Of a stretch of DNA of 64,000 nucleotides, positions 29,727 through 38,712 are shown in pieces (the stretch's first letter is position 1; every line of letters begins with the position of its first letter). A program made the position numbers and the translations under genes. The stretch is taken from NCBI GenBank assembly GCA_034521975.1, contig JAXHLR010000010.1, positions 62,001 to 126,000 on the forward strand, written 5' to 3'. The DNA comes from Acidimicrobiales bacterium (lineage in GTDB: Bacteria > Actinomycetota > Acidimicrobiia > Acidimicrobiales > SKKL01). The notes beneath the pieces were generated by a model, which did no database searches, was not told where the DNA came from, and worked only from the letters and a program-made list of their open reading frames with translations.

Positions 29727-30893
29727 TCAGGTCACCTCGTCGAGGGGAGGCAGGGTTCGACGGACGTGGGCGTCGATGTGGGGGATGGCGAACTCGATCC
29801 ACCCGTATCGGGGTGAGAAGACGAGCCCCTCGCGGATGAGGCGGTCGCGGAACGCAGCCACCTCGGGTGTCGTGCGTCCCATCGCGGCGGCGACCTCGCC
29901 CGAGCGGTGCGGACCACCGCCGAGCGACGCCAGGGCTCGGACGTAGGCGACCTCGGACTCGGGGATGCGGGCGAGGCGGGCGGCGAAGAACGAGGCGTCG
30001 AGGGCCAGGCGGGCGGCCGGTGTGGCCCGCTCGACGTCGTCGGCCGAGATCGGCTCGTCGATCGCGGCGTTCCACGTGTGGTACGCCCACACCTGCACGA
30101 AGAACGGGAACCCGTCGGAGCGGTCGACCACGGTGTCGATCGCCTGGGGAGACCAGGTGACCGCCAGCTCCTTGGCCGGGGCGGCGACCGCATCTCGAAC
30201 CTGGTCGGGTGACAGCGGGCCGAGCTGGTCGACGGTGAACATGCGTTCGGCGTAGGTCGAGGCCTTGGCGGCGATGCCGACCAGGTTGGGGAGGCCGGCG
30301 AGCAGGCACCACAAGGGCAGTGCATCCTGTCCACAGCGGTGCACGCCGGCGAGCACGCGGCGGAGGTCGTCGTTGTCGAGCATCTGGGCCTCGTCGAGGG
30401 CGAGCATCACCCCGAGCTCGTGCTCGGCGGCGGCGGTGGCCACGTCGACGAGCACGTCCGCGAGGGCTTCGCGGTCGGGGGTGCGGGCGGGGTTCTTCCT
30501 GACCCGCACACCGGTGCCGCCGAGGCTGAGCGACACCGCTTCGATCGAGCGCAGGGCCCGGGTGACCTTGGCGCTGCGATCGAGGTCCTCGATGATGCGT
30601 CGGGTCTGGCGCAACAACGAGACGACGGCATCGTCGCCACCGACGGCCTCGAGCCGCACGACCCGGAAGCCGACGTTCTCGCCGACCGCGGCCAGCTTGC
30701 CGAGCAGCACGGTCTTGCCGACCCCTCGGAGGCCGGTGAGCAACAGGTGCTGGGTCGACCGTCCGGCGGCCAGGCGGCGCAGACTGATCTCGGCCAGCTC
30801 GATGGTGCCGTCCCTGCCGACCAGCGCCGGTGGCGGGGTCCCGGCGCCGGGGGCGTAGGGGTTGGCGACCGGGTCGTAGCGTTCTCCCGACAT
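29727..30893 (-). CDS. Cdc6/ORC-like AAA ATPase with winged-helix tail
   Basis: This 388-residue P-loop ATPase opens with NPYAPGAGTPPPALVGRD, then Walker A LTGLRGVGKTVLL (about 53-65) and Walker B VMLALDEAQML (about 160-170). A C-terminal part with GEVAAAMGRTTPEVAAFRDRLI and EGLVFSPRYGWIEFAIP looks like a winged helix. This is the plan of Cdc6/ORC-like or STAND-like regulatory ATPases found widely in actinobacteria with unknown function. The downstream HNH gene follows within a few bases. TAAACT six bases before the ATG gives a leaderless start. Alternative reading: a housekeeping ATPase that merely neighbours an HNH gene. Confidence 0.82.
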   Translation of the reverse strand: MSGERYDPVANPYAPGAGTPPPALVGRDGTIELAEISLRRLAAGRSTQHLLLTGLRGVGKTVLLGKLAAVGENVGFRVVRLEAVGGDDAVVSLLRQTRRIIEDLDRSAKVTRALRSIEAVSLSLGGTGVRVRKNPARTPDREALADVLVDVATAAAEHELGVMLALDEAQMLDNDDLRRVLAGVHRCGQDALPLWCLLAGLPNLVGIAAKASTYAERMFTVDQLGPLSPDQVRDAVAAPAKELAVTWSPQAIDTVVDRSDGFPFFVQVWAYHTWNAAIDEPISADDVERATPAARLALDASFFAARLARIPESEVAYVRALASLGGGPHRSGEVAAAMGRTTPEVAAFRDRLIREGLVFSPRYGWIEFAIPHIDAHVRRTLPPLDEVT

Positions 30894-30899
30894 GCCGGG

Positions 30900-30905
30900 A
30901 GTTTA
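30900..30905 (-). promoter_or_regulatory. Leaderless-type -10 box for ATPase-HNH operon
   Basis: TAAACT on the minus strand ends six bases before the ATG at 30893. Confidence 0.55.
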
Positions 30906-30988
30906 GCGTCGATCTCGAAAGCGAGGGCAGATCGGTCAGGTTCAAGCGTCGGCCAAGGCGCGGACCGCCCGGCGTGTTGGTGGTGGTG

Positions 30989-32182
30989 TCACCACGCGGC
31001 GTGGGAGAACGCACCGGGGATCGTGCCCGACTCGCCGTCGGGGCCGAACCAGTGCAGCGAGCCGGTGGTCGCGCCGGCGGACTCGGCCGCGACCACCAGC
31101 AGCCACTCGCCGGTGGCATCGACATCCTGATCGATCGGGATGCCGGGGTAGTCGATCTGCTCGACCGGCGCGATCGAGAGCGTCTCGGGATCGATCGACC
31201 ACGCGGACCAGGGCCCGTCCGCCTCCGGTTGCCGGGCCGCCACAAGCGACCCATCACGTCGGAACACCGGGAGGGTCCAGTGGCTGTCGGGTACGACGAC
31301 CGGCGCCGGGTCGACGATCTCGCTGACACCGGTGCCGGTCTCCTCCACCGTCGCCGTGGTCACCAACGACAGCCGGCGACCGGTTGCGTCGGGATCCGAG
31401 GATGCGGTCGTCACCGCCAGCAGCTCGCCGTCGGGGGACAGGGTGGCTCGACCGAGGCTCGTGGCCGTCGCGGGCTCCCAGATGTGTGATCTGGAGTCAC
31501 GGGTGCTGTCGAGCCGCGCCAGAAGGCCGACGCTGGTGACCCAGTTCGGGCTGGTGCCGATCACGGGCCTGGTGGAGTTGGCGACCAGAGCCGCGTCGCC
31601 CACCGGCTCGATGGGCAGCTCGTGGAGCGTTCCGGGTGGTGGCTCGCAACAGATCGAGTACCAGAGGCGCCGGCGGTCGTGGGACAGGGCGATGCCACCG
31701 ATCGTGGCCGGGTCGGTGGCGTCGGCTCCGGGGGCGTCGGCCAGCTCGGTCAGGGTCTCGCCCGAGGAGGTCTCGCCCAGGATCAGGCCACCGCCGGCGG
31801 TCGCAGCCGCGAACACCTCTGGTGGGTCCGGTCGGGTGTCGGCCAGCGGGCCCACGGCGATCGCCGGTCCGGGCACGGTCGGGATCGGCGCCTCGGTCGT
31901 GGCCGTGGTGCTGGTCGTGGTCGTGTCGGAGATCGGCGGTGGCTCGCTGGTGGTCTCGGGGGTCGTTTCGGTCGGAGGCGGGTCCGGGGGTCCCCCGGCG
32001 GTGCCGGCGACGTCGCCCTCGCCCTCGCCGTCGTCACCGGCAGCGGCGAGCAGGGTGCCGATGGCCACCGCCACGATGGCGACCACCGCGAGGGTGGCCA
32101 GCACGGTCGTCACCGTGGACGACTGGCTCGGGTCGAGGTCGTCGTCGGGTGGCCGGGCCTCTGGTTGCCGCGGCGCGGTCAT
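30989..32182 (-). CDS. Membrane-anchored protein with propeller-like domain
   Basis: This 397-residue protein has a short acidic cytoplasmic N-terminus, one membrane helix (about 25-47, TVLATLAVVAIVAVAIGTLL), a Thr/Pro-rich linker (about 60-105) and an extracytoplasmic domain with repeated LSHDRRRLWY-, LSPDGELLAV- and FRRDGSLVAA-type strands. Such repeats suggest a TolB/WD-like beta-propeller. I cannot name a family or function. It has two adjacent cysteines (SICCEPPPG). It is alone on its transcript: 95 bp without a gene follow it and 45 bp precede it. Confidence 0.7.
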   Translation of the reverse strand: MTAPRQPEARPPDDDLDPSQSSTVTTVLATLAVVAIVAVAIGTLLAAAGDDGEGEGDVAGTAGGPPDPPPTETTPETTSEPPPISDTTTTSTTATTEAPIPTVPGPAIAVGPLADTRPDPPEVFAAATAGGGLILGETSSGETLTELADAPGADATDPATIGGIALSHDRRRLWYSICCEPPPGTLHELPIEPVGDAALVANSTRPVIGTSPNWVTSVGLLARLDSTRDSRSHIWEPATATSLGRATLSPDGELLAVTTASSDPDATGRRLSLVTTATVEETGTGVSEIVDPAPVVVPDSHWTLPVFRRDGSLVAARQPEADGPWSAWSIDPETLSIAPVEQIDYPGIPIDQDVDATGEWLLVVAAESAGATTGSLHWFGPDGESGTIPGAFSHAAW

Positions 32183-32227
32183 GGAACAGGTGTACCCCTC
32201 ACGGGCAGCGACGACACAATCAGCAGC

Positions 32228-33055
32228 TCAGCCGAAATCGGGCGGTAGGTCTCCGGTCTTCGACATCGTCCACTGCGGCGTGCGCTTCTCGAGGAACGAC
32301 GACACCCCCTCGCGGGAGTCGGGTTGCTGGGTCGTCCAGCGGTAGAGCTCGCCGTCGGTGGCCTGGGCGGCAGCATGGTCGGTCTCCTCGAGCATCTGCC
32401 ATGCCAGTCGCTTCGACAGCGCGACCGAGACCGGGGCGCACTTCCCGGCGATCTGGTGGGCCTTGTCGAGCGCGGCCGGAAGCACGTCGGCGGCGGGAAG
32501 CGCCTGGGACACGAGCCCCATCTCCGCCGCCTCAGCGCCGGTGAAGATGCGGCCGGTCAACAGCAGGTCCATCGCGTTCGACATGCCGACCAGCCGCGGG
32601 AGCAGCCAGTGCGCCCCCAGTTCAGGGATCCACCCTCGGCGGATGAAGACCAGGCCCATCTTGGCGTCCTCGGCCGCGATGCGGATGTCCCACTGCAGCG
32701 GGAGCGTCAGGCCCACCCCGACCGCGGGACCGTTGATCGCACCGATGATCGGTGTCGACATCTCCCACGGCTTGATCCGTGGCGCGTCGGCGCTCGGGCG
32801 CTGGCCCGCGGCGGACGCGCCCGATCCGTCACGCTGGCGTCCCAGCGCGGCACCCGCGCAGAAGAAGTCGCCCGAACCGGTGACGATCACGACCCGTACC
32901 GAGTCGTCGGCCTCGGCCGCGGCGAACGCCTGGTTCAGCTCGCCGCCGAGTTGCCAGGTGAACTCGTTGCGTGGCGGCCGGTGCAGCGTGATCGTGCGAA
33001 CCCCCTCGTCGTCGTCGACGAGCAGGGTCTCGTAGTCGTGCGCGACCTCGGTCAT
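32228..33055 (-). CDS. Enoyl-CoA hydratase/isomerase family protein
   Basis: This 275-residue crotonase-fold protein has the oxyanion-hole strand GSGDFFCAGAALGR (about 60-73) and PIIGAINGPAVGVGLTLPL with the second oxyanion glycine. The region FIRRGWIPELGAHWLLPRLVG holds a glutamate (E in IPELG) at the position used for hydration; the first catalytic glutamate position of true hydratases is less clear. The family covers hydratases, isomerases and related CoA enzymes, so specificity is open. GGGGGGATC serves as ribosome site. Confidence 0.88.
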   Translation of the reverse strand: MTEVAHDYETLLVDDDEGVRTITLHRPPRNEFTWQLGGELNQAFAAAEADDSVRVVIVTGSGDFFCAGAALGRQRDGSGASAAGQRPSADAPRIKPWEMSTPIIGAINGPAVGVGLTLPLQWDIRIAAEDAKMGLVFIRRGWIPELGAHWLLPRLVGMSNAMDLLLTGRIFTGAEAAEMGLVSQALPAADVLPAALDKAHQIAGKCAPVSVALSKRLAWQMLEETDHAAAQATDGELYRWTTQQPDSREGVSSFLEKRTPQWTMSKTGDLPPDFG

Positions 33056-33179
33056 GATCCCCCCAGTGGTCGGTCGGTGCAGCCGACCCAGTGTCCACCG
33101 TCAGGAGTGGTCGCGCAATCGGGTCGGCATCGGGCAGGCGTCGCCCGTCCCCCGGTCGGCGCCTGGTCGGACGCGACAC

Positions 33180-33201
33180 GCACCCGGCCGAAGCCGGGTG
33201 C
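33180..33201 (-). terminator. cUUCGg hairpin behind precursor-peptide array
   Basis: Read on the minus strand, GCACCCGGC pairs with GCCGGGTGC (9 bp) around a UUCG loop, the exceptionally stable cUUCGg tetraloop, 28 bases after the last peptide gene. No U-run follows, so it may stop transcription weakly or protect the mRNA 3' end. The rest of 33056-33228 shows no gene. Confidence 0.5.
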
Positions 33202-33228
33202 GGTAGGCAGAGCAGCTCCCGTGTGGTT

Positions 33229-33369
33229 CTAGGCCGGGCCGTCGGGGGGCTCGCTGAGCGAAAGGTTGCCGTTGCGGGCGGCGACGTCGGGGGCGTCGGA
33301 GCGGCTGTCGGGGTTGGTGAGCGGGGTGACGCTGGGCCGGGCCCAGACCCGCTTGGGTGCATGTGTCAT
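33229..33369 (-). CDS. RiPP-type precursor peptide C
   Basis: This 46-codon gene encodes MTHAPKRVWARPSVTPLT followed by NPDSRSDAPDVAARNG and a distinct tail NLSLSEPPDGPA. It is the third of three tandem paralogues; residues 1-34 are almost identical to peptide B (V/T at 8, A/V at 10, A/T at 26 differ). The W-x-R-P-S-V stretch matches the aromatic-x-x-P-x-hydrophobic pattern that PqqD-like domains recognise in lasso-type leaders. AGAGG lies upstream of the ATG with about six bases spacing. Synonymous conservation of the frame across three copies shows it is translated. The modified product and core boundaries are unknown. Confidence 0.75.
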   Translation of the reverse strand: MTHAPKRVWARPSVTPLTNPDSRSDAPDVAARNGNLSLSEPPDGPA

Positions 33370-33377
33370 CGAAACCT

Positions 33378-33518
33378 CTACGTGTCGACTGGGCTCAAGA
33401 CCACGCCGTTGTCGTTGCCGTTGCGGGCGGCGACGTCGGGGGTGTCGGAGCGGCTGTCGGGGTTGGTGAGCGGGGTGACGCTGGGCCGGACCCAGGTCCG
33501 CTTTGGTGCGTGTGTCAT
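33378..33518 (-). CDS. RiPP-type precursor peptide B
   Basis: This 46-residue peptide reads MTHAPKRTWVRPSVTPLT, NPDSRSDTPDVAARNG and tail NDNGVVLSPVDT. It shares everything up to ARNG with peptides A and C and differs only at the C-terminus. There are no cysteines, so lanthionine or thioether chemistry is unlikely; Asn, Asp, Ser, Thr and Pro dominate, giving targets for hydroxylation, phosphorylation or nucleotidylation. It lies nine bases after peptide A's stop and eight bases before peptide C's start. The upstream ribosome site is weak (AGAGAG), so translation may depend on coupling. Confidence 0.75.
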   Translation of the reverse strand: MTHAPKRTWVRPSVTPLTNPDSRSDTPDVAARNGNDNGVVLSPVDT

Positions 33519-33528
33519 CGGATTCTCT

Positions 33529-33657
33529 CTATTTAACGTTGGGCTCGCCCGAGATGCCGTTGCGGGCGTTGACGTCGGGGGTGTCGGAGCGGCTGTCGGG
33601 GTTGGTGAGCGGGGTGGCGCTCGGCCGGACCCAGGTCCGCCTCGTGGTGTTCGGCAT
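33529..33657 (-). CDS. RiPP-type precursor peptide A
   Basis: This 42-residue peptide is the first of the array: MPNTTRRTWVRPSATPLT, NPDSRSDTPDVNARNG and tail ISGEPNVK. It is the most divergent copy at its N-terminus but keeps TWVRPS, TPLTNPDSRSD and the ARNG junction. AAGGAG is ten bases upstream of the ATG, the strongest ribosome site in the array, and the promoter and palindrome lie just before it. The PhyH-type dioxygenase is divergent from it. No homologous family is recognised by eye. Confidence 0.75.
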   Translation of the reverse strand: MPNTTRRTWVRPSATPLTNPDSRSDTPDVNARNGISGEPNVK

Positions 33658-33679
33658 CGAGTGGCACTCCTTCGTCAAG

Positions 33680-33694
33680 GTGATCGGCGATCAC
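33680..33694. promoter_or_regulatory. Palindromic operator candidate
   Basis: GTGATC-GGC-GATCAC is a perfect inverted repeat placed immediately downstream of the -10 box of the peptide array promoter, where a bound repressor would block initiation. It also lies in the upstream region of the divergent dioxygenase gene. Confidence 0.45.
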
Positions 33695-33721
33695 ACTATC
33701 CTCATCCGTGCCGGCTGTCAC
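33695..33721 (-). promoter_or_regulatory. Promoter candidate for precursor-peptide array
   Basis: On the minus strand GTGACA (33716-33721) and GATAGT (33695-33700) are spaced by 15 bases, resembling -35 and -10 elements with a slightly short spacer. Transcription would start within the palindrome and give a leader with the AAGGAG ribosome site. Confidence 0.4.
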
Positions 33722-33751
33722 GGCCTTGTTGTGCGGTACCCGAGGAGCGCC

Positions 33752-34828
33752 ATGCCAACGCCACGTCGATATGTCGAGCTCGCCGCCGCAGCGGCTCGGG
33801 ATCTGCGTGGGTGGCGCCGAGGCCGCCCCTCGACTGGCAACACCTACATCGCCATGCGGCGCGCCCACCGGCTCACCGCCGGCTGGTCGAGCGTCGCCGC
33901 CCGACAGCTCCTGCAGAAGGCTCCCGGGTCCCCCGACCGCCTTGCGCCGCTCGATCGACCCCGCCTCGACGACGCCGGCGCCCGCTCGCTGGCCGACCTG
34001 CGGCGCGACGGCATGGCGATGCTCGAACCGGTCCTGGCGCCCGACGAGGTGGCGAGCCTGGTCGACTTCGCCCAGCGAGGGCCGGCCCGGGGCAGGCTCC
34101 CCTCCGGAACGATGCAGGCGGGGACCTATCGAGACCTGGCGGGATCCGCCAGCGCCGTGTTCCTCGACGGCACCTTCGCCTGGGCACGTCCCGAGGTGCA
34201 GCGGATCCTGGCCGACGAGCGGCTCTGGGACCTGGCCCGGGCCTACTTCGGGCTTGTCCCCGTCGTTCAGCCACCCCAGATCTACTGGTCGTGCGCCGCT
34301 GCGCCCGACAACGAGACCCTCGCCCCGAACCTCGCCCGCAACTTCCACTGGGACTACGACGGCGTCGGCGGGCTGCGCCTGCACCTCTACCTCACCGACG
34401 TCGACGCCAGTGCCGCACCGATGCAGTACGTGGTCGGCAGCCATCGTCCCGGGGCCCTGCGCACCCACGAGCTGCGCCACGCCGACGACGGCACCGCGTC
34501 CGAGTCCGCGCTCGACGCCCTGGGTCTGGTCGAGCGGCGATCGATCACCGGTCCTGCGGGCACCACCTTCATCAGCGACTCGACCGGTCTGCACCGCGCC
34601 ACCCGCCCGACCGGGCGCGACCGGCTGTTCCTCGTGTTCTCGCTCCGGGCCGGATCGTTCGCCGGCTACTACCACCGCCGTCGGCGGGTGCCGGCACGCG
34701 ACCCCCGCTTCGCCGCGGCCCTCGCCGCCGGTCGTCCGGAGCTGTCGCTGTTCTCCGCCGCCGATCCCGACGAGATGGTGGTGACCCTCGACGAGGAGAC
34801 CGCCGCCGCGGCCGCTACTGGGGGGTGA
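33752..34828 (+). CDS. PhyH-type Fe(II)/2-oxoglutarate dioxygenase
   Basis: This 358-residue protein has a phytanoyl-CoA dioxygenase-like double-stranded beta helix. His199 and Asp201 in NFHWDYDG and the distal His281 in TGLHRATRPTGRDR form the iron site, with a following arginine for 2-oxoglutarate; LRLHLYLTDVDASAAPMQYV and VVGSHRPGA are typical PhyH segments. The start has GAGGAG five bases upstream. Because three precursor peptides are divergent from it and a PqqD-like protein converges on its 3' end (14-bp overlap), hydroxylation of the peptides is the natural inference; a small-molecule substrate cannot be excluded. Confidence 0.82.
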   Translation: MPTPRRYVELAAAAARDLRGWRRGRPSTGNTYIAMRRAHRLTAGWSSVAARQLLQKAPGSPDRLAPLDRPRLDDAGARSLADLRRDGMAMLEPVLAPDEVASLVDFAQRGPARGRLPSGTMQAGTYRDLAGSASAVFLDGTFAWARPEVQRILADERLWDLARAYFGLVPVVQPPQIYWSCAAAPDNETLAPNLARNFHWDYDGVGGLRLHLYLTDVDASAAPMQYVVGSHRPGALRTHELRHADDGTASESALDALGLVERRSITGPAGTTFISDSTGLHRATRPTGRDRLFLVFSLRAGSFAGYYHRRRRVPARDPRFAAALAAGRPELSLFSAADPDEMVVTLDEETAAAAATGG

Positions 34829-35090
34829 CCGCGCCGATGTCGGTGAGCTGGGCGAGGCAGGCCTCGACCTCGCCGCGGCAGGTGTCCTCGTCGACCTCGA
34901 ACTGCTCGAGCAGCGCGTCCACCACCTGATCGGTGGTCTTGGGCTCGGCCAGCGCGTCCCAGATCGCGGCGGCGGTGACGTTCAGCGAGTGGTAGCGCAT
35001 GTCCGACGGTGAGAGCACCACGGTCTCACCGTCGACCTCGGCACTGGCCGCACTCGGCGCTCGTCGATAGGTGGGCTCGGCATCGGACAC
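34815..35090 (-). CDS. PqqD-like RiPP recognition element protein
   Basis: This 91-residue protein has the PqqD/RRE plan: a three-stranded N-terminal wing (SAEVDGETVVLSPSDMRYHSLN) cut here as EVDGETVVLSPSDMRYHSLN, then AAAIWDALAEPKTTDQVVDA and a helix with EACLAQLTDIGAV. PqqD-type domains bind leader peptides and present them to modifying enzymes. The LNxTAAAIWD motif is characteristic. The GTG at 35090 is chosen because TAGGCT lies seven bases upstream; a TTG at 35108 lacks such support. It overlaps the dioxygenase end and follows the kinase-like gene on the same strand. Confidence 0.88.
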   Translation of the reverse strand: MSDAEPTYRRAPSAASAEVDGETVVLSPSDMRYHSLNVTAAAIWDALAEPKTTDQVVDALLEQFEVDEDTCRGEVEACLAQLTDIGAVTPQ

Positions 35091-35097
35091 GGCGTGG

Positions 35098-35103
35098 AGC
35101 CTA
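35098..35103 (-). promoter_or_regulatory. Leaderless-type -10 box for PqqD-like gene
   Basis: TAGGCT on the minus strand overlaps the last codons of the kinase-like gene and ends seven bases before the GTG at 35090, allowing separate transcription of the PqqD-like gene. Confidence 0.5.
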
Positions 35104-36009
35104 TCCAACCGGTCCGGTCCGGGCGGCGGTGACCAGGTCGCACACCGCGTCGAGCGTGTCTGCGCCGCTCAGGCGGGTGATCTCCACCGTGGGAAGTGCC
35201 GATGCCACCGAGGTCGACCACTCGAAGAAGGCTCCCGATCGGGGACCGAAGGACGAGAGTCCCGAGTTGTTGGCCAGCCGGACCACCCATCGCAACCGTT
35301 CGGCGCCGGTGATGTCGCGGACGACGACAGGCCGTTCGGCTGTTGGGGCCACCTCGGGGACGATCGGGTTCGGCCACTCGTCGGGTGGGTCGGGGTCGTG
35401 GCAGATCAGGGTGACGAGGCGGTCGATCGGCACCGGACCGCTCGCTTCGGCCAGGTCGACGGCGAACTTGCTGAAGGGGCCCTCGCCCAACTCCTCGCCC
35501 GGGTCGACGATGCCGAGCCTGGCCACCGCCTCGTGGCTCAGGTGCACCGGCCGGGGGAAGGGACGAGCCGTGGGCCGTCCGTCGACCAGGTCGACGTGGA
35601 CGACGTCGTCGATGAGCAGGGTCGCACCCCGCTCGTGGGCGAGCGTCGCCACCGTCGTGCTCTTGCCGGCGCCGCTGTGGCCGCCGATCACCACGTGCTC
35701 GTCGCCGATGCGAACCAGCGACCCGTGCAGGTTGAAGGTGCCGGCGTGCAGCATCAGAATCCTGGTCGCCCAGCCGTAGAGCAGCGGCGCGACCAGGGAG
35801 CGGTCCACGTCGTCGGGGATCTCGACGACGATCTCGTCGGTGCCGCGGATCATCACCCTCAGGTCGAGCAGGTCGGCCCAGACCGTGTCGGGGGTCGCCC
35901 ACGCCTGGGTCCCGATGGCGACCGCGTCGGCCGAAGGTGGGTCGACCGGTGCGTACCGGACCGTGGCGCCCAGCACCTCGTCGGGAAGCTCGGGAGTCGA
36001 GGTCGTCAT
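35101..36009 (-). CDS. HPr-kinase-like protein of RiPP cluster
   Basis: This 302-residue protein has a P-loop GGHSGAGKST (109-118) within a region matching HPr kinase C-terminal domains: LHGSLVRIGDEHVVIGG, then ATLLIDDVVHVDL with paired aspartates at 134-135. N-terminal residues lack the usual HprK regulatory domain. Similar HprK-like proteins occur in some lasso peptide clusters such as paeninodin, where one phosphorylates the precursor's C-terminal Ser. Here a role in phosphorylating one of the Ser/Thr residues of the peptides is inference. The ATG at 36009 diverges from the nucleotidyltransferase. Confidence 0.83.
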   Translation of the reverse strand: MTTSTPELPDEVLGATVRYAPVDPPSADAVAIGTQAWATPDTVWADLLDLRVMIRGTDEIVVEIPDDVDRSLVAPLLYGWATRILMLHAGTFNLHGSLVRIGDEHVVIGGHSGAGKSTTVATLAHERGATLLIDDVVHVDLVDGRPTARPFPRPVHLSHEAVARLGIVDPGEELGEGPFSKFAVDLAEASGPVPIDRLVTLICHDPDPPDEWPNPIVPEVAPTAERPVVVRDITGAERLRWVVRLANNSGLSSFGPRSGAFFEWSTSVASALPTVEITRLSGADTLDAVCDLVTAARTGPVG

Positions 36010-36077
36010 GGCGCGTTGCCGGCTTCGGAGCCGGTCTCGGGGGCCGTCGTCGGGATCAGCACACCGAGATGATGCCC

Positions 36078-36083
36078 TACGCT
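36078..36083 (+). promoter_or_regulatory. -10 box candidate for nucleotidyltransferase
   Basis: TACGCT is followed after eight bases by an ATG opening an 8-codon ORF (36092-36118) whose TGA overlaps the nucleotidyltransferase ATG. GGAG lies before the real start, so the transcript probably has a short leader of about 25 nt. Confidence 0.45.
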
Positions 36084-36114
36084 CGGGCCCGATGCCGACC
36101 ACCGGGCGGAGACC

Positions 36115-37302
36115 ATGACGGACACGGGCCCGCAGGAGCCTCCCTCGGCGCTGAGCGGTGAGACCCGGCACCTCCTCGACGCGGTCCGTGTCGGACTCGG
36201 TCTCGACCCGTCCGGAACCGATGCTCCGGTGTCGCTCGGGCTCGTCCGGCGTGCGGCGCGCCAGGGGGTCGCGGCTCCGGTGGTGGCCGCGGCTCGGATG
36301 CTGGGCACCGCCGACGAGGAGACCGCCCGGACGGTCGCCGACCTGTCGCGCTCCCAGGCACTCGGTGGCCTCCGCGCCCTGGTCACCACCAGGCAGCTGG
36401 TGGAGCTGTTCGATCGGGCGGGGATCCCGGTCCTGGTGGTCAAGGGGGTCGCCTTGGGGGCCCAGACCGGCCGCGAGCCGGCGGAGCGCCACGGCGTCGA
36501 CGTCGACCTGCTGGTCCGACCCGACGACCTGCTGGCAGCCGACCAGGTCCTGGCGGCGGCCGGCTACCGGGCGAACGAACGCACCTGCCCGCCCCTCGGC
36601 GACGACCAGCGCAGCCGGTTCCTCCGCTGGAGCGCCTACGAGCGCAGTTACTCGCGGCAGGGCGCCCACGCCGATCTGCACTGGCGGCTCACCCCTGGCC
36701 ACCTGCCCGGCCTGGCGGCCGAGGCCGTCATGGACGACGCGGTGACCGTCGACGTCGGCGGAACCCCGGTCGCGACCCTCGATCCCGACGCCGCGCTGGC
36801 CCACACGGTGCTGCACGGCGCCAAGGACTACTGGCTCAGTCTGCGATCCACCGTCGACGCCCATCTGCTGGTCACCGTCGCCGGGGCGGGCTGGGAACGC
36901 GCCCGTGAGCTGGCGGCGGACAGTCCCGCGATCGCCGAGGCTCGACTCGGCGTCGAGGTGCTGTGCGGAGCGACCGATCTTGTGGCGGACCGAGCGAGTC
37001 GCCCACGTCGGCCCTTGGCACAGCCGACCCCCCGACGCCGATGGCTGGACGGGATCGAGGGCCGTGCCGAGCTCCCGGTCGGGGGAGGGCCGCCTCCCGA
37101 CGGGTGGGTCCCCTACCTCCGCCGCCGGTGCTCGGTGACGCCCGGCGTCGCCTCGACGGCAGCGATCGTGGCGAACCTGTTGGTCACCCCCGACTCGCTC
37201 GCCAGGTCGCAGGCGAGGCCATCGCTGTGGTGGGTCGACGCCCTGGCCCAGCGGCCTCGACGGATCCTCACCCGCGCCCGGCGGCGTGGCGAGCGCTCCT
37301 GA
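36115..37302 (+). CDS. PF14907-type nucleotidyltransferase family protein
   Basis: This 395-residue protein has the NTP_transf_5 signature: PVLVVKGVALGAQTG (about 108-122), then RHGVDVDLLVRPDDLL, the metal-binding D-x-D, and HADLHWRLTPGH further on (about 184). These proteins are frequent companions of HPr-kinase-like and PqqD-like proteins in RiPP, notably lasso, clusters; their reaction is not well defined, nucleotidylation of a peptide or carrier being assumed. C-terminal part is basic (RRILTRARRRGER). It is divergent from the kinase-like gene across 105 bp and converges on the DUF4349 gene. Confidence 0.82.
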   Translation: MTDTGPQEPPSALSGETRHLLDAVRVGLGLDPSGTDAPVSLGLVRRAARQGVAAPVVAAARMLGTADEETARTVADLSRSQALGGLRALVTTRQLVELFDRAGIPVLVVKGVALGAQTGREPAERHGVDVDLLVRPDDLLAADQVLAAAGYRANERTCPPLGDDQRSRFLRWSAYERSYSRQGAHADLHWRLTPGHLPGLAAEAVMDDAVTVDVGGTPVATLDPDAALAHTVLHGAKDYWLSLRSTVDAHLLVTVAGAGWERARELAADSPAIAEARLGVEVLCGATDLVADRASRPRRPLAQPTPRRRWLDGIEGRAELPVGGGPPPDGWVPYLRRRCSVTPGVASTAAIVANLLVTPDSLARSQARPSLWWVDALAQRPRRILTRARRRGERS

Positions 37303-37317
37303 GGTGACCGCGGCGCG

Positions 37318-38712
37318 TCAGTCGGTGGTCGAGGTCGTGCCCGCCTGCGCGTCCACCACGCCGGCCTGGTCCCGCCTGCGCCACCAGAGGTAGATCCCCG
37401 CGGGGATGGCGGCGATCACGACGAACGGGGCGGCGGCACCGACGGCGACGAGCACCACACCGAACACCCGTTGCAGCGCAGTCAGCCCGTAGCCGAGCGA
37501 GTCGCCCAGTCCGGGCAGCGAGTCGTCCTCGGCGACCTCGAGGGTGAGCGGGTCGTCGTGGACCATGGTGGACTGGCGGATCGGCTCCCCTTCGCCGTCG
37601 ACGGGCACCGTGGTGACGTCGGGTCGGGGGCGGTCGCCGGGCGACGCCTCGAAGCGGGCCCAGGCGATCACGGTCTCCTCCGGTGCGAGTACGTCGTCGT
37701 CGCCGAAGTCGATCAGCGCGAAGTCCTCGCGACGCAGGTCCAGGCCCAGGTCACGGACCTCGATGTCGGCGAGGTCGACGTTGCCGGTGTTGTCGACGGC
37801 GACGCACACGATCACCGGCTCGCCCTCCTCGGTCTCGAGCCGCGGCTCGCCGGGGCAGCGATCCCCCTGGTCGTCGCCGGCATAGGCGGTCGTGGTGACC
37901 TCGATCTCGGGCTGTGCCCCCTCCTCGGTGATGGTCACGGTGATCGTCGCCAGGTTCACCTGGGACTGGACGGTGCGCAGCTGCCCTCGCAGCTGCTCGA
38001 GGCTGGTCTCGCGCTCGAGCAGCTGGGACTCGATCGAGGCGACCGCTTCGATGGTCTCGGCCTGTTCGAGCAGGCTCCGGAGGCGTTCGACGCTCACTTC
38101 GGCGGTGCGGATCCGGCTCTGGAGGTCGACGACCCGGTCGGTGACGTCGTCGGCGCTGATGTCCTGGTTGACCATCGTGCCGATGCCCTCGAGCCGTTCC
38201 ATCGCGTCGTCGAAGCTCTCCGGTGGCACCTTGAACACCAGGGTCGTGCGCGGCCGGGGGTCGCTGGTGGTGGTCTGGGAGAACACCAGGCCTCCCACCG
38301 CGGCCACGGCCTGCTGGGCCTGGCGGCTGGCGCCGCTCACGTCGTCGACCTCGATGTCGACGGTGGCGGTGTAGATGATCGAACGCCCCAGCTCGGTCGA
38401 CGGGAGCACCACCGGCGCCGCCGCGGTGCCCGGGCCGGCGGCATCCCCGCCGCCCTGCTCGCCGCGGTCGGCGTCCTCGGCCGGTGCTTCGGCGCCGTCG
38501 TCGCCCGCCGTGTCTCCCGGCGCCTCACCGGCCGGCATCTCTTCACCGGCGTCGCCGCCGGTGGGGGCATCTGCGGAGTCCATCGAGTCGTCGTCGCCGC
38601 CACTGGTGCAGCCGGCGACGAGCAGCACCAAGGCGACGAGCGCCGCCGCCATCCTCGGTCCCCCGCCCGTCGATCGGGTTCGCTGGTCCTGCCGAGCGTT
38701 CATCGAGCGCAC
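37318..38712 (-). CDS. DUF4349 lipoprotein
   Basis: This 464-residue protein has an N-terminal lipobox (VALVLLVAGCTSGG) after a basic segment, a long acidic low-complexity linker (about 38-95), and a DUF4349 domain (about 107-260: IIYTATVDIEV, TTLVFKVPPESFDDAM, DVTDRVVDLQSRI, a coiled helix, then VNLATITVTI). A C-terminal membrane helix near 410-440 precedes WWRRRDQAG. DUF4349 proteins are cell-surface proteins of unknown role. The GTG at 38712 is chosen since AAGGAGG is seven bases upstream. Having both lipid and transmembrane anchors is unusual but typical of the family. Confidence 0.87.
   Translation of the reverse strand: MRSMNARQDQRTRSTGGGPRMAAALVALVLLVAGCTSGGDDDSMDSADAPTGGDAGEEMPAGEAPGDTAGDDGAEAPAEDADRGEQGGGDAAGPGTAAAPVVLPSTELGRSIIYTATVDIEVDDVSGASRQAQQAVAAVGGLVFSQTTTSDPRPRTTLVFKVPPESFDDAMERLEGIGTMVNQDISADDVTDRVVDLQSRIRTAEVSVERLRSLLEQAETIEAVASIESQLLERETSLEQLRGQLRTVQSQVNLATITVTITEEGAQPEIEVTTTAYAGDDQGDRCPGEPRLETEEGEPVIVCVAVDNTGNVDLADIEVRDLGLDLRREDFALIDFGDDDVLAPEETVIAWARFEASPGDRPRPDVTTVPVDGEGEPIRQSTMVHDDPLTLEVAEDDSLPGLGDSLGYGLTALQRVFGVVLVAVGAAAPFVVIAAIPAGIYLWWRRRDQAGVVDAQAGTTSTTD

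Follow-up and report, generated by a model that had tools for sequence, protein, structure and literature searches.

A putative LPP-like RiPP cassette with three tandem precursor peptides and an added oxygenase in an Acidimicrobiales genome

In a window of 64,000 nucleotides from an Acidimicrobiales bacterium (the window being the whole stretch of DNA analysed), three tandem peptide genes lie beside genes for a PhyH-type Fe(II)/2-oxoglutarate oxygenase, a PqqD-type discrete RiPP recognition element (RRE), an HprK-like kinase and an NTP_transf_5 nucleotidyltransferase. What is observed is this gene content, the pattern of conservation in the peptides, their W-x-x-P motif, the lack of a lasso B2 protease match in the bacterium's own genome and the recurrence of the five parts in a second genome. 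We propose, with moderate confidence, that the cassette is a small RiPP locus resembling those of the linear polyphosphorylated peptides (LPP), in which PqqD docking, phosphorylation of Ser22, capping and hydroxylation would give a linear product. In favour of this reading, the five parts recur, with 40-49% identity and in another arrangement, in G450, a distantly related genome of the same order; against it, only two genomes among those searched carry the cassette, and neither the lasso nor the LPP kind of leader peptidase was found (B2 was sought in the own genome, SpI in the own genome and G450).

The peptide genes occupy positions 33229-33657 of the minus strand, and the open reading frames and their translations bear out the earlier note's description of three frames with a body of about 34 residues that ends in ARNG. 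P1 (33529..33657, 42 aa, tail ISGEPNVK) begins at ATG 33657, downstream of a GAAGGAG, and is supported by its ORF, its codon frame and a homologue in G450; an in-frame TTG at 33678, upstream of the ATG, is a possible alternative start. The ATG of P2 (33378..33518, 46 aa, tail NDNGVVLSPVDT) lies 10 nt past the P1 stop, and that of P3 (33229..33369, 46 aa, tail NLSLSEPPDGPA) 8 nt past the P2 stop. Residues 1-34 form the common body, with R7, W9, R11-S13, T15-D25, P27-V29 and A31-G34 invariant among the three; the TWVRPS motif that had been ascribed to all of them is found in P1 and P2, while P3 has VWARPS. None of the three contains a cysteine, as had been noted. The tails had been said to diverge fully after ARNG, and indeed no pair aligns better than shuffled sequence (2000, 1249 and 1625 of 2000 shuffles attain the real score).

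At the DNA level the array is made up of a 115-nt unit in three direct copies, at intervals of 149 and 139 nt, two of them being 92% and 78% identical to the reference one. Scored with the codon frequencies of eight genes from the neighbourhood, the annotated frame comes out best of six in P1, P2 and P3 (scores of 10.0, 10.8 and 7.1, against 3.4, -4.6 and -5.0 for the runner-up frames), and third codon positions are about 91-95% G+C. Because the copies differ over 34 codons by only 1-2 synonymous and 3-10 non-synonymous changes (1 and 7 for P1/P2, 1 and 10 for P1/P3, 2 and 3 for P2/P3), they are, to judge from these counts, recent duplicates that are too young for a selection test among themselves, and their near-identity alone is no evidence of purifying selection.

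The oxygenase gene (33752..34828, plus strand, 358 aa) is divergent from the peptide genes and matches PF05721 with 22.8 bits, against a cut-off of 22. Its product shares H199-x-D201, H281 and R291 with the G450 homologue, residues which we take to be the Fe/2-oxoglutarate ligands. Ahead of the likely PhyH start, ATG 33752, which is preceded by a GAGGAG, the frame remains open for a further 250 nt or so (33503-33752), running antisense to P1 and to the last part of P2; a longer protein could be made from it, though this appears less likely. The end of the PqqD gene (34815..35090, minus strand, 91 aa, PF05402 at 5e-18) overlaps the end of the PhyH gene by 14 nt. The kinase gene follows (35101..36009, minus strand, 302 aa), with an intact P-loop GGHSGAGKST, DD131-132 in the numbering of a 299-aa stretch, and matches to Hpr_kinase_C (1e-6) and TIGR04352 (2e-7) that both lie below the curated cut-offs; HPr kinases in the PDB are matched at 1e-4. 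Divergent from it lies the nucleotidyltransferase gene (36115..37302, plus strand, 395 aa, PF14907 at 5.9e-37, compared with 2.5e-31 for the G450 homologue). Beyond the cassette lie genes for a DUF4349 protein at one end and for an enoyl-CoA hydratase at the other. Structure predictions of the oxygenase and the kinase, made from two-row alignments, were of poor quality (pLDDT 38.5 and 46.2). PADLOC gave no support for a defence system, its only match being a P-loop stretch of 40 residues in the kinase. The pairing of a PqqD-like protein with an HprK-related kinase also recalls the HPr-rel-A systems (TIGR04352/TIGR04353), but the window proteins are not members (30.1 against a cut-off of 200 bits for the kinase, 24.4 against 35 bits for PqqD).

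The RRE is of the lasso/LPP type. In NCBIfam it comes closest to lasso PqqD models, though with scores under their cut-offs, and the nearest PDB chains (9x90, 5v1u, 9x8z and 6jx3) are lasso and LPP RREs, which include RREs that, by the published account, were solved with [Y/W]xxP leaders (PMC13381572). In a tree, the window and G450 RREs are sisters (96/97) within the lasso/LPP type, this pair being the only usable grouping since the bootstrap had not settled. Hand mapping on the alignment places LppB N33, reported as required for binding (PMC13381572), at N37, kept in both RREs, and LppB D70 at E74 in the window and D74 in G450. Speaking against the LPP-like reading, the Phe that divides the leader cleft falls at C78 in the window and A78 in G450.

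A homologous cassette with all five parts is present in G450, at locus L079. Identities to the window are 45% for PhyH, 42% for the nucleotidyltransferase, 40% for the kinase and 49% for PqqD, and the 40-residue peptide MDQVIKQEWDVPAAEALTDVESRADRPDVTMRNGQTSVPA is 40% identical to P2. Its gene is flanked by those for the kinase, at a distance of 40 nt, and for PqqD, at 34 nt, with the nucleotidyltransferase and PhyH genes divergent, whereas in the window the peptide genes lie beyond PhyH. The same parts in another order around an intact peptide gene are the best evidence that the peptides are probable substrates of the cassette. The bodies of P1-P3 align to the G450 peptide with Smith-Waterman scores of 75-81, which none of 10,000 shuffles attains (highest 52), and its tail is unrelated to those of the window. 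All four peptides keep M1, W9, P12, L17, T18, S22, R23, D25, P27, D28, V29, R32, N33 and G34; Ser22 is the sole serine kept in all four, and Thr18 the only other invariant hydroxyl residue. It is this homologue, and not the window copies, that argues for constraint on the body, in a single cross-genome comparison, two genomes carrying the cassette. Identity to this homologue is flat across the three codon positions (20-21, 20-21 and 18-20 of 34), a weak test because of the G+C-rich third positions.

These comparisons support the earlier suggestion of precursor-like peptides with a constant body and a free tail. Its proposal of an RRE-binding motif also gains ground: W9-x-x-P12-x-V/A14 occurs in all four precursors and fits the [Y/W]xxPx[L/V/I/F/A] described as bound by discrete lasso-type RREs (PMC13381572), the gene for a lasso-type PqqD protein lies at a distance of 1.2 kb, and the distant G450 peptide retains both W9 and P12. 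Short diversified cores, one of the two readings offered in that note, are not the whole story, as a second conserved block, SRxDxPDVxxRNG, lies well beyond the docking motif. Since this block is kept between distant genomes and the tails are not, the modified part seems more likely to lie here than in the tail.

A separate set of genes (L079:21-2577), some 5 kb distant from the G450 cassette, includes a cut NTP_transf_5 gene and encodes two further proteins: one of 408 aa, in which a PqqD-like part appears to precede an HprK-like one, and one of 192 aa, which begins with a twin-arginine-like sequence and contains several cysteines. Together they may form a kinase system whose target is exported.

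The cassette appears to be rare. No full cassette beyond those of the window genome and G450 was found in the sampled genomes of the class, order, family and phylum. A kinase search of 395 genomes of the class recovered G450 (2e-42) and, besides the own genome, only one other match (G074, 3e-20); a kinase profile run on 397 genomes of the order gave 8 matches at 1e-12, the own genome included, and the regions fetched from three genomes (G515, G027 and G635) gave no PhyH match. Searching 200 genomes of G450's family for PhyH yielded G450 itself as the only match, and searching 396 genomes of the phylum for PqqD yielded only the own genome. The genome draws were overlapping samples, and G450 is missing from the matches of both the order kinase search and the phylum PqqD search, so the lack of a match does not mean absence from the group. 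In a genome of the same genus (G001), two blocks match window 30370-30930 and 37379 onward, with about 5.1 kb between them that has no match to window 30.9-37.4 kb; on this comparison the cassette occupies a region that differs from one of the two species to the other, and 30930-37379 looks like a gene-exchange site.

Several further candidates were rejected. A strong kinase match (G487, locus L091) lies on a 6.3 kb contig with an in-frame sulfotransferase domain and an ABC transporter, in which neither PqqD nor PhyH was found, and belongs to a different cluster. PhyH homologues in two genomes (G048 and G114) had no PqqD or HprK match nearby. Among the matches listed, weak peptide matches in four genomes (G057, G063, G101 and G014) were off-frame beside longer ORFs and had neither the W-x-x-P nor the RNG block, and two in the own genome (E 0.1 and 0.65) were rejected on the same grounds. 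A peptide pattern scan of genome contigs gave 31 stretches and no relative, and alignments of PhyH and the peptides to viral contigs gave none either. Plasmid searches returned one cyanobacterial record with PhyH, which has no cassette genes, and two records with PqqD, each annotated as a lasso cluster that includes B2 and Asn synthase. We found no earlier description of this cassette in searches of the open-licence PMC literature.

In readable clusters, the closest kinases of the order outside the cassette are those of L062/L080 and L047, kinase-bearing lasso clusters that combine a kinase and a sulfotransferase domain with PqqD, B2 and Asn synthetase and are probably phospho-/sulfo-lasso clusters. 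In L062, as in L091, sulfotransferase and kinase share one open frame. Lasso-like precursor ORFs were also seen near PqqD genes at L059:3156-3320 (YVPPMIETLG leader), where a kinase match lies nearby as well, and at L052:5955-6125 (YEAPDMRVLG leader).

The closest parallel is offered by the LPPs, described in 2026 and stated to be restricted to Bacillota, with lppA-K-B-S-D-N of Paenibacillus alginolyticus as the reference cluster (PMC13381572). According to that description, their clusters encode an RRE, an HprK-like kinase, an NTP transferase and one to three precursors in which the N-terminus is conserved and the C-terminus varies strongly; the product is linear and carries several phosphates, all on one Ser and none on Thr, replacement of LppA S3 by Thr abolishing phosphorylation, and LppN was inactive in a heterologous host (PMC13381572). 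The window cassette resembles them in its discrete lasso-type RRE (by PF05402, PDB neighbours and tree), in its kinase (below curated Pfam and NCBIfam cut-offs, with the P-loop intact), in a probably comparable NTP transferase (by PF14907), in precursors with a conserved N-terminal part carrying [Y/W]xxPx[L/V/I/F/A] and a variable C terminus, and in being likewise without a cyclase. It differs in that the precursors do not have the full consensus YxxPxVLxHQxIxFETxxS, with W in place of Y, another motif after the P and no FET cleavage motif, and in that W9 and S22 are 13 residues apart, compared with 18 between Y-16 and S3 in LppA as described. A PhyH oxygenase is added in both cassettes, and both genomes are actinobacterial, of the same order, rather than Bacillota. 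The SpI (SipW-type) peptidase model TIGR02228 gave only matches below cut-off in the own genome and G450, none near the cassette, and a scan of 10 proteins from the window and 9 from L079 found no MsbA-like transporter or ABC exporter; next to PhyH in L079, but not in the window, lies an EamA transporter gene. We therefore read the cassette as LPP-like in its probable mode of working and do not file it as a member, there being no SpI, no MsbA-like neighbour, no full consensus and no affiliation to Bacillota.

The LPP-like reading would run as follows, with docking, each modification and its site and any cleavage inferred from the type of RRE, the kinases of LPP and lasso clusters, pseudomycoidin and canucin. 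In each precursor the RRE would dock W9-x-x-P12-x-[V/A]14; RREs of this kind are reported to hold the leader strand via [Y/W]xxPx[V/L] in complexes of known structure (PMC13381572). The kinase would then phosphorylate a serine of the conserved block, Ser22, as the HprK-like kinases of lasso and LPP clusters are described as phosphorylating Ser. The nucleotidyltransferase may cap or glycosylate the Ser22 phosphate; that of pseudomycoidin is reported to add hexoses to the phosphate (PMC8498205). The oxygenase might hydroxylate a residue in SRxDxPDVxxRNG, where D25, P27, D28 and N33 are kept, much as CanE, an Fe/2-oxoglutarate Asp beta-hydroxylase, hydroxylates the canucin precursor at Asp (PMC8498205). 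Compared by description, canucin-type systems share an Fe/2-oxoglutarate oxygenase that tailors a linear precursor, but a kinase or nucleotidyltransferase is not noted for them in that account (PMC8498205). The product would be linear, since no cyclase is present, and the tail after RNG would be tolerated as variable, either as a diversified product end or as a part cut off by an unlinked protease.

The alternatives share much of this machinery. One might speculate, as a tentative possibility, that the cassette represents a RiPP class of its own, which arose from phospho-lasso machinery by loss of protease and cyclase and gain of the oxygenase, in which Ser22 would be phosphorylated and capped, Asp, Pro or Asn hydroxylated, and the tails would serve as addressing or diversity ends, with no dedicated leader-peptidase cleavage. 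The phosphorylated lasso peptides paeninodin and pseudomycoidin are alike in having an RRE with WxxP leaders, an HprK-like kinase and a nucleotidyltransferase (PMC8498205, PMC13381572); the window genome differs in having neither B2 nor a lasso-type Asn synthetase, and their kinases are described as targeting a C-terminal Ser (PMC8498205, PMC13381572), with which none of the four peptides ends. Rather unlikely, in our opinion, is that the 34-residue body is itself the working part, modified and then retained, inside the cell or on another protein, and neither cleaved nor exported. Conservation does peak at SRxDxPDVxxRNG and end at G34, the tails after RNG diverge even among tandem copies, and the cassette has neither a known type of leader peptidase nor an exporter; a housekeeping protease or exporter encoded elsewhere could do this work, however, and different tails on near-identical DNA bodies are easier to read as diversification of the product than as neutral drift.

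A lasso cluster with divergent or unlinked protease and cyclase, cores from about residue 19, and kinase, nucleotidyltransferase and oxygenase as tailoring enzymes is very unlikely, even though the RRE and kinase are of lasso type, kinase, nucleotidyltransferase and 2-oxoglutarate hydroxylase tailoring is described for lasso peptides (PMC8498205), and kinase-bearing lasso clusters occur in the same order. The likeness to lasso systems extends to the discrete RRE with a [Y/W]xxP leader. The 98.7% complete own genome has no match to the B2 protease (PF13471, E<=0.001), of which 14 of the 22 genomes searched, a set that left out G450, have one. Its matches to the Asn-synthetase-like cyclase PF00733 are three partial ones, all away from the cassette, that cover 18-77, 18-82 and 21-188 of 354 positions, and the tails, of 6 to 12 residues, have no common ring-closing Asp/Glu position. 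As the own genome has neither B2 nor a full-length lasso-type Asn synthetase, the cassette is, on gene content, not a lasso system, and membership of the lasso class, to which the motif in the earlier note pointed, is not supported. That the array consists of decaying or accidental duplicates of one real gene, with tails from small post-duplication rearrangements and no functional diversity, is equally improbable: the few synonymous changes, the total tail replacement and the variable region would suit it, but the three frames are intact, with favoured codon usage and 8-10 nt spacing, the tail also varies between genomes, and variable tails are described as the rule in LPP precursors (PMC13381572).

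Returning to the LPP-like reading, the cassette brings together in an actinobacterium the three enzymes of the LPPs, which had been described as restricted to Bacillota (PMC13381572), and an oxygenase. The final LPP product and the role of the NTP transferase are given as undefined in the 2026 description (PMC13381572), and the substrate here is small (40-46 aa, with one invariant Ser and a very short, clearly delimited conserved block), so that phosphorylation, capping and hydroxylation could be tested in one pot. The cassette also poses the question of how a peptide might be matured without a dedicated leader peptidase. It looks like a rare actinobacterial relative of the recently described LPP family.
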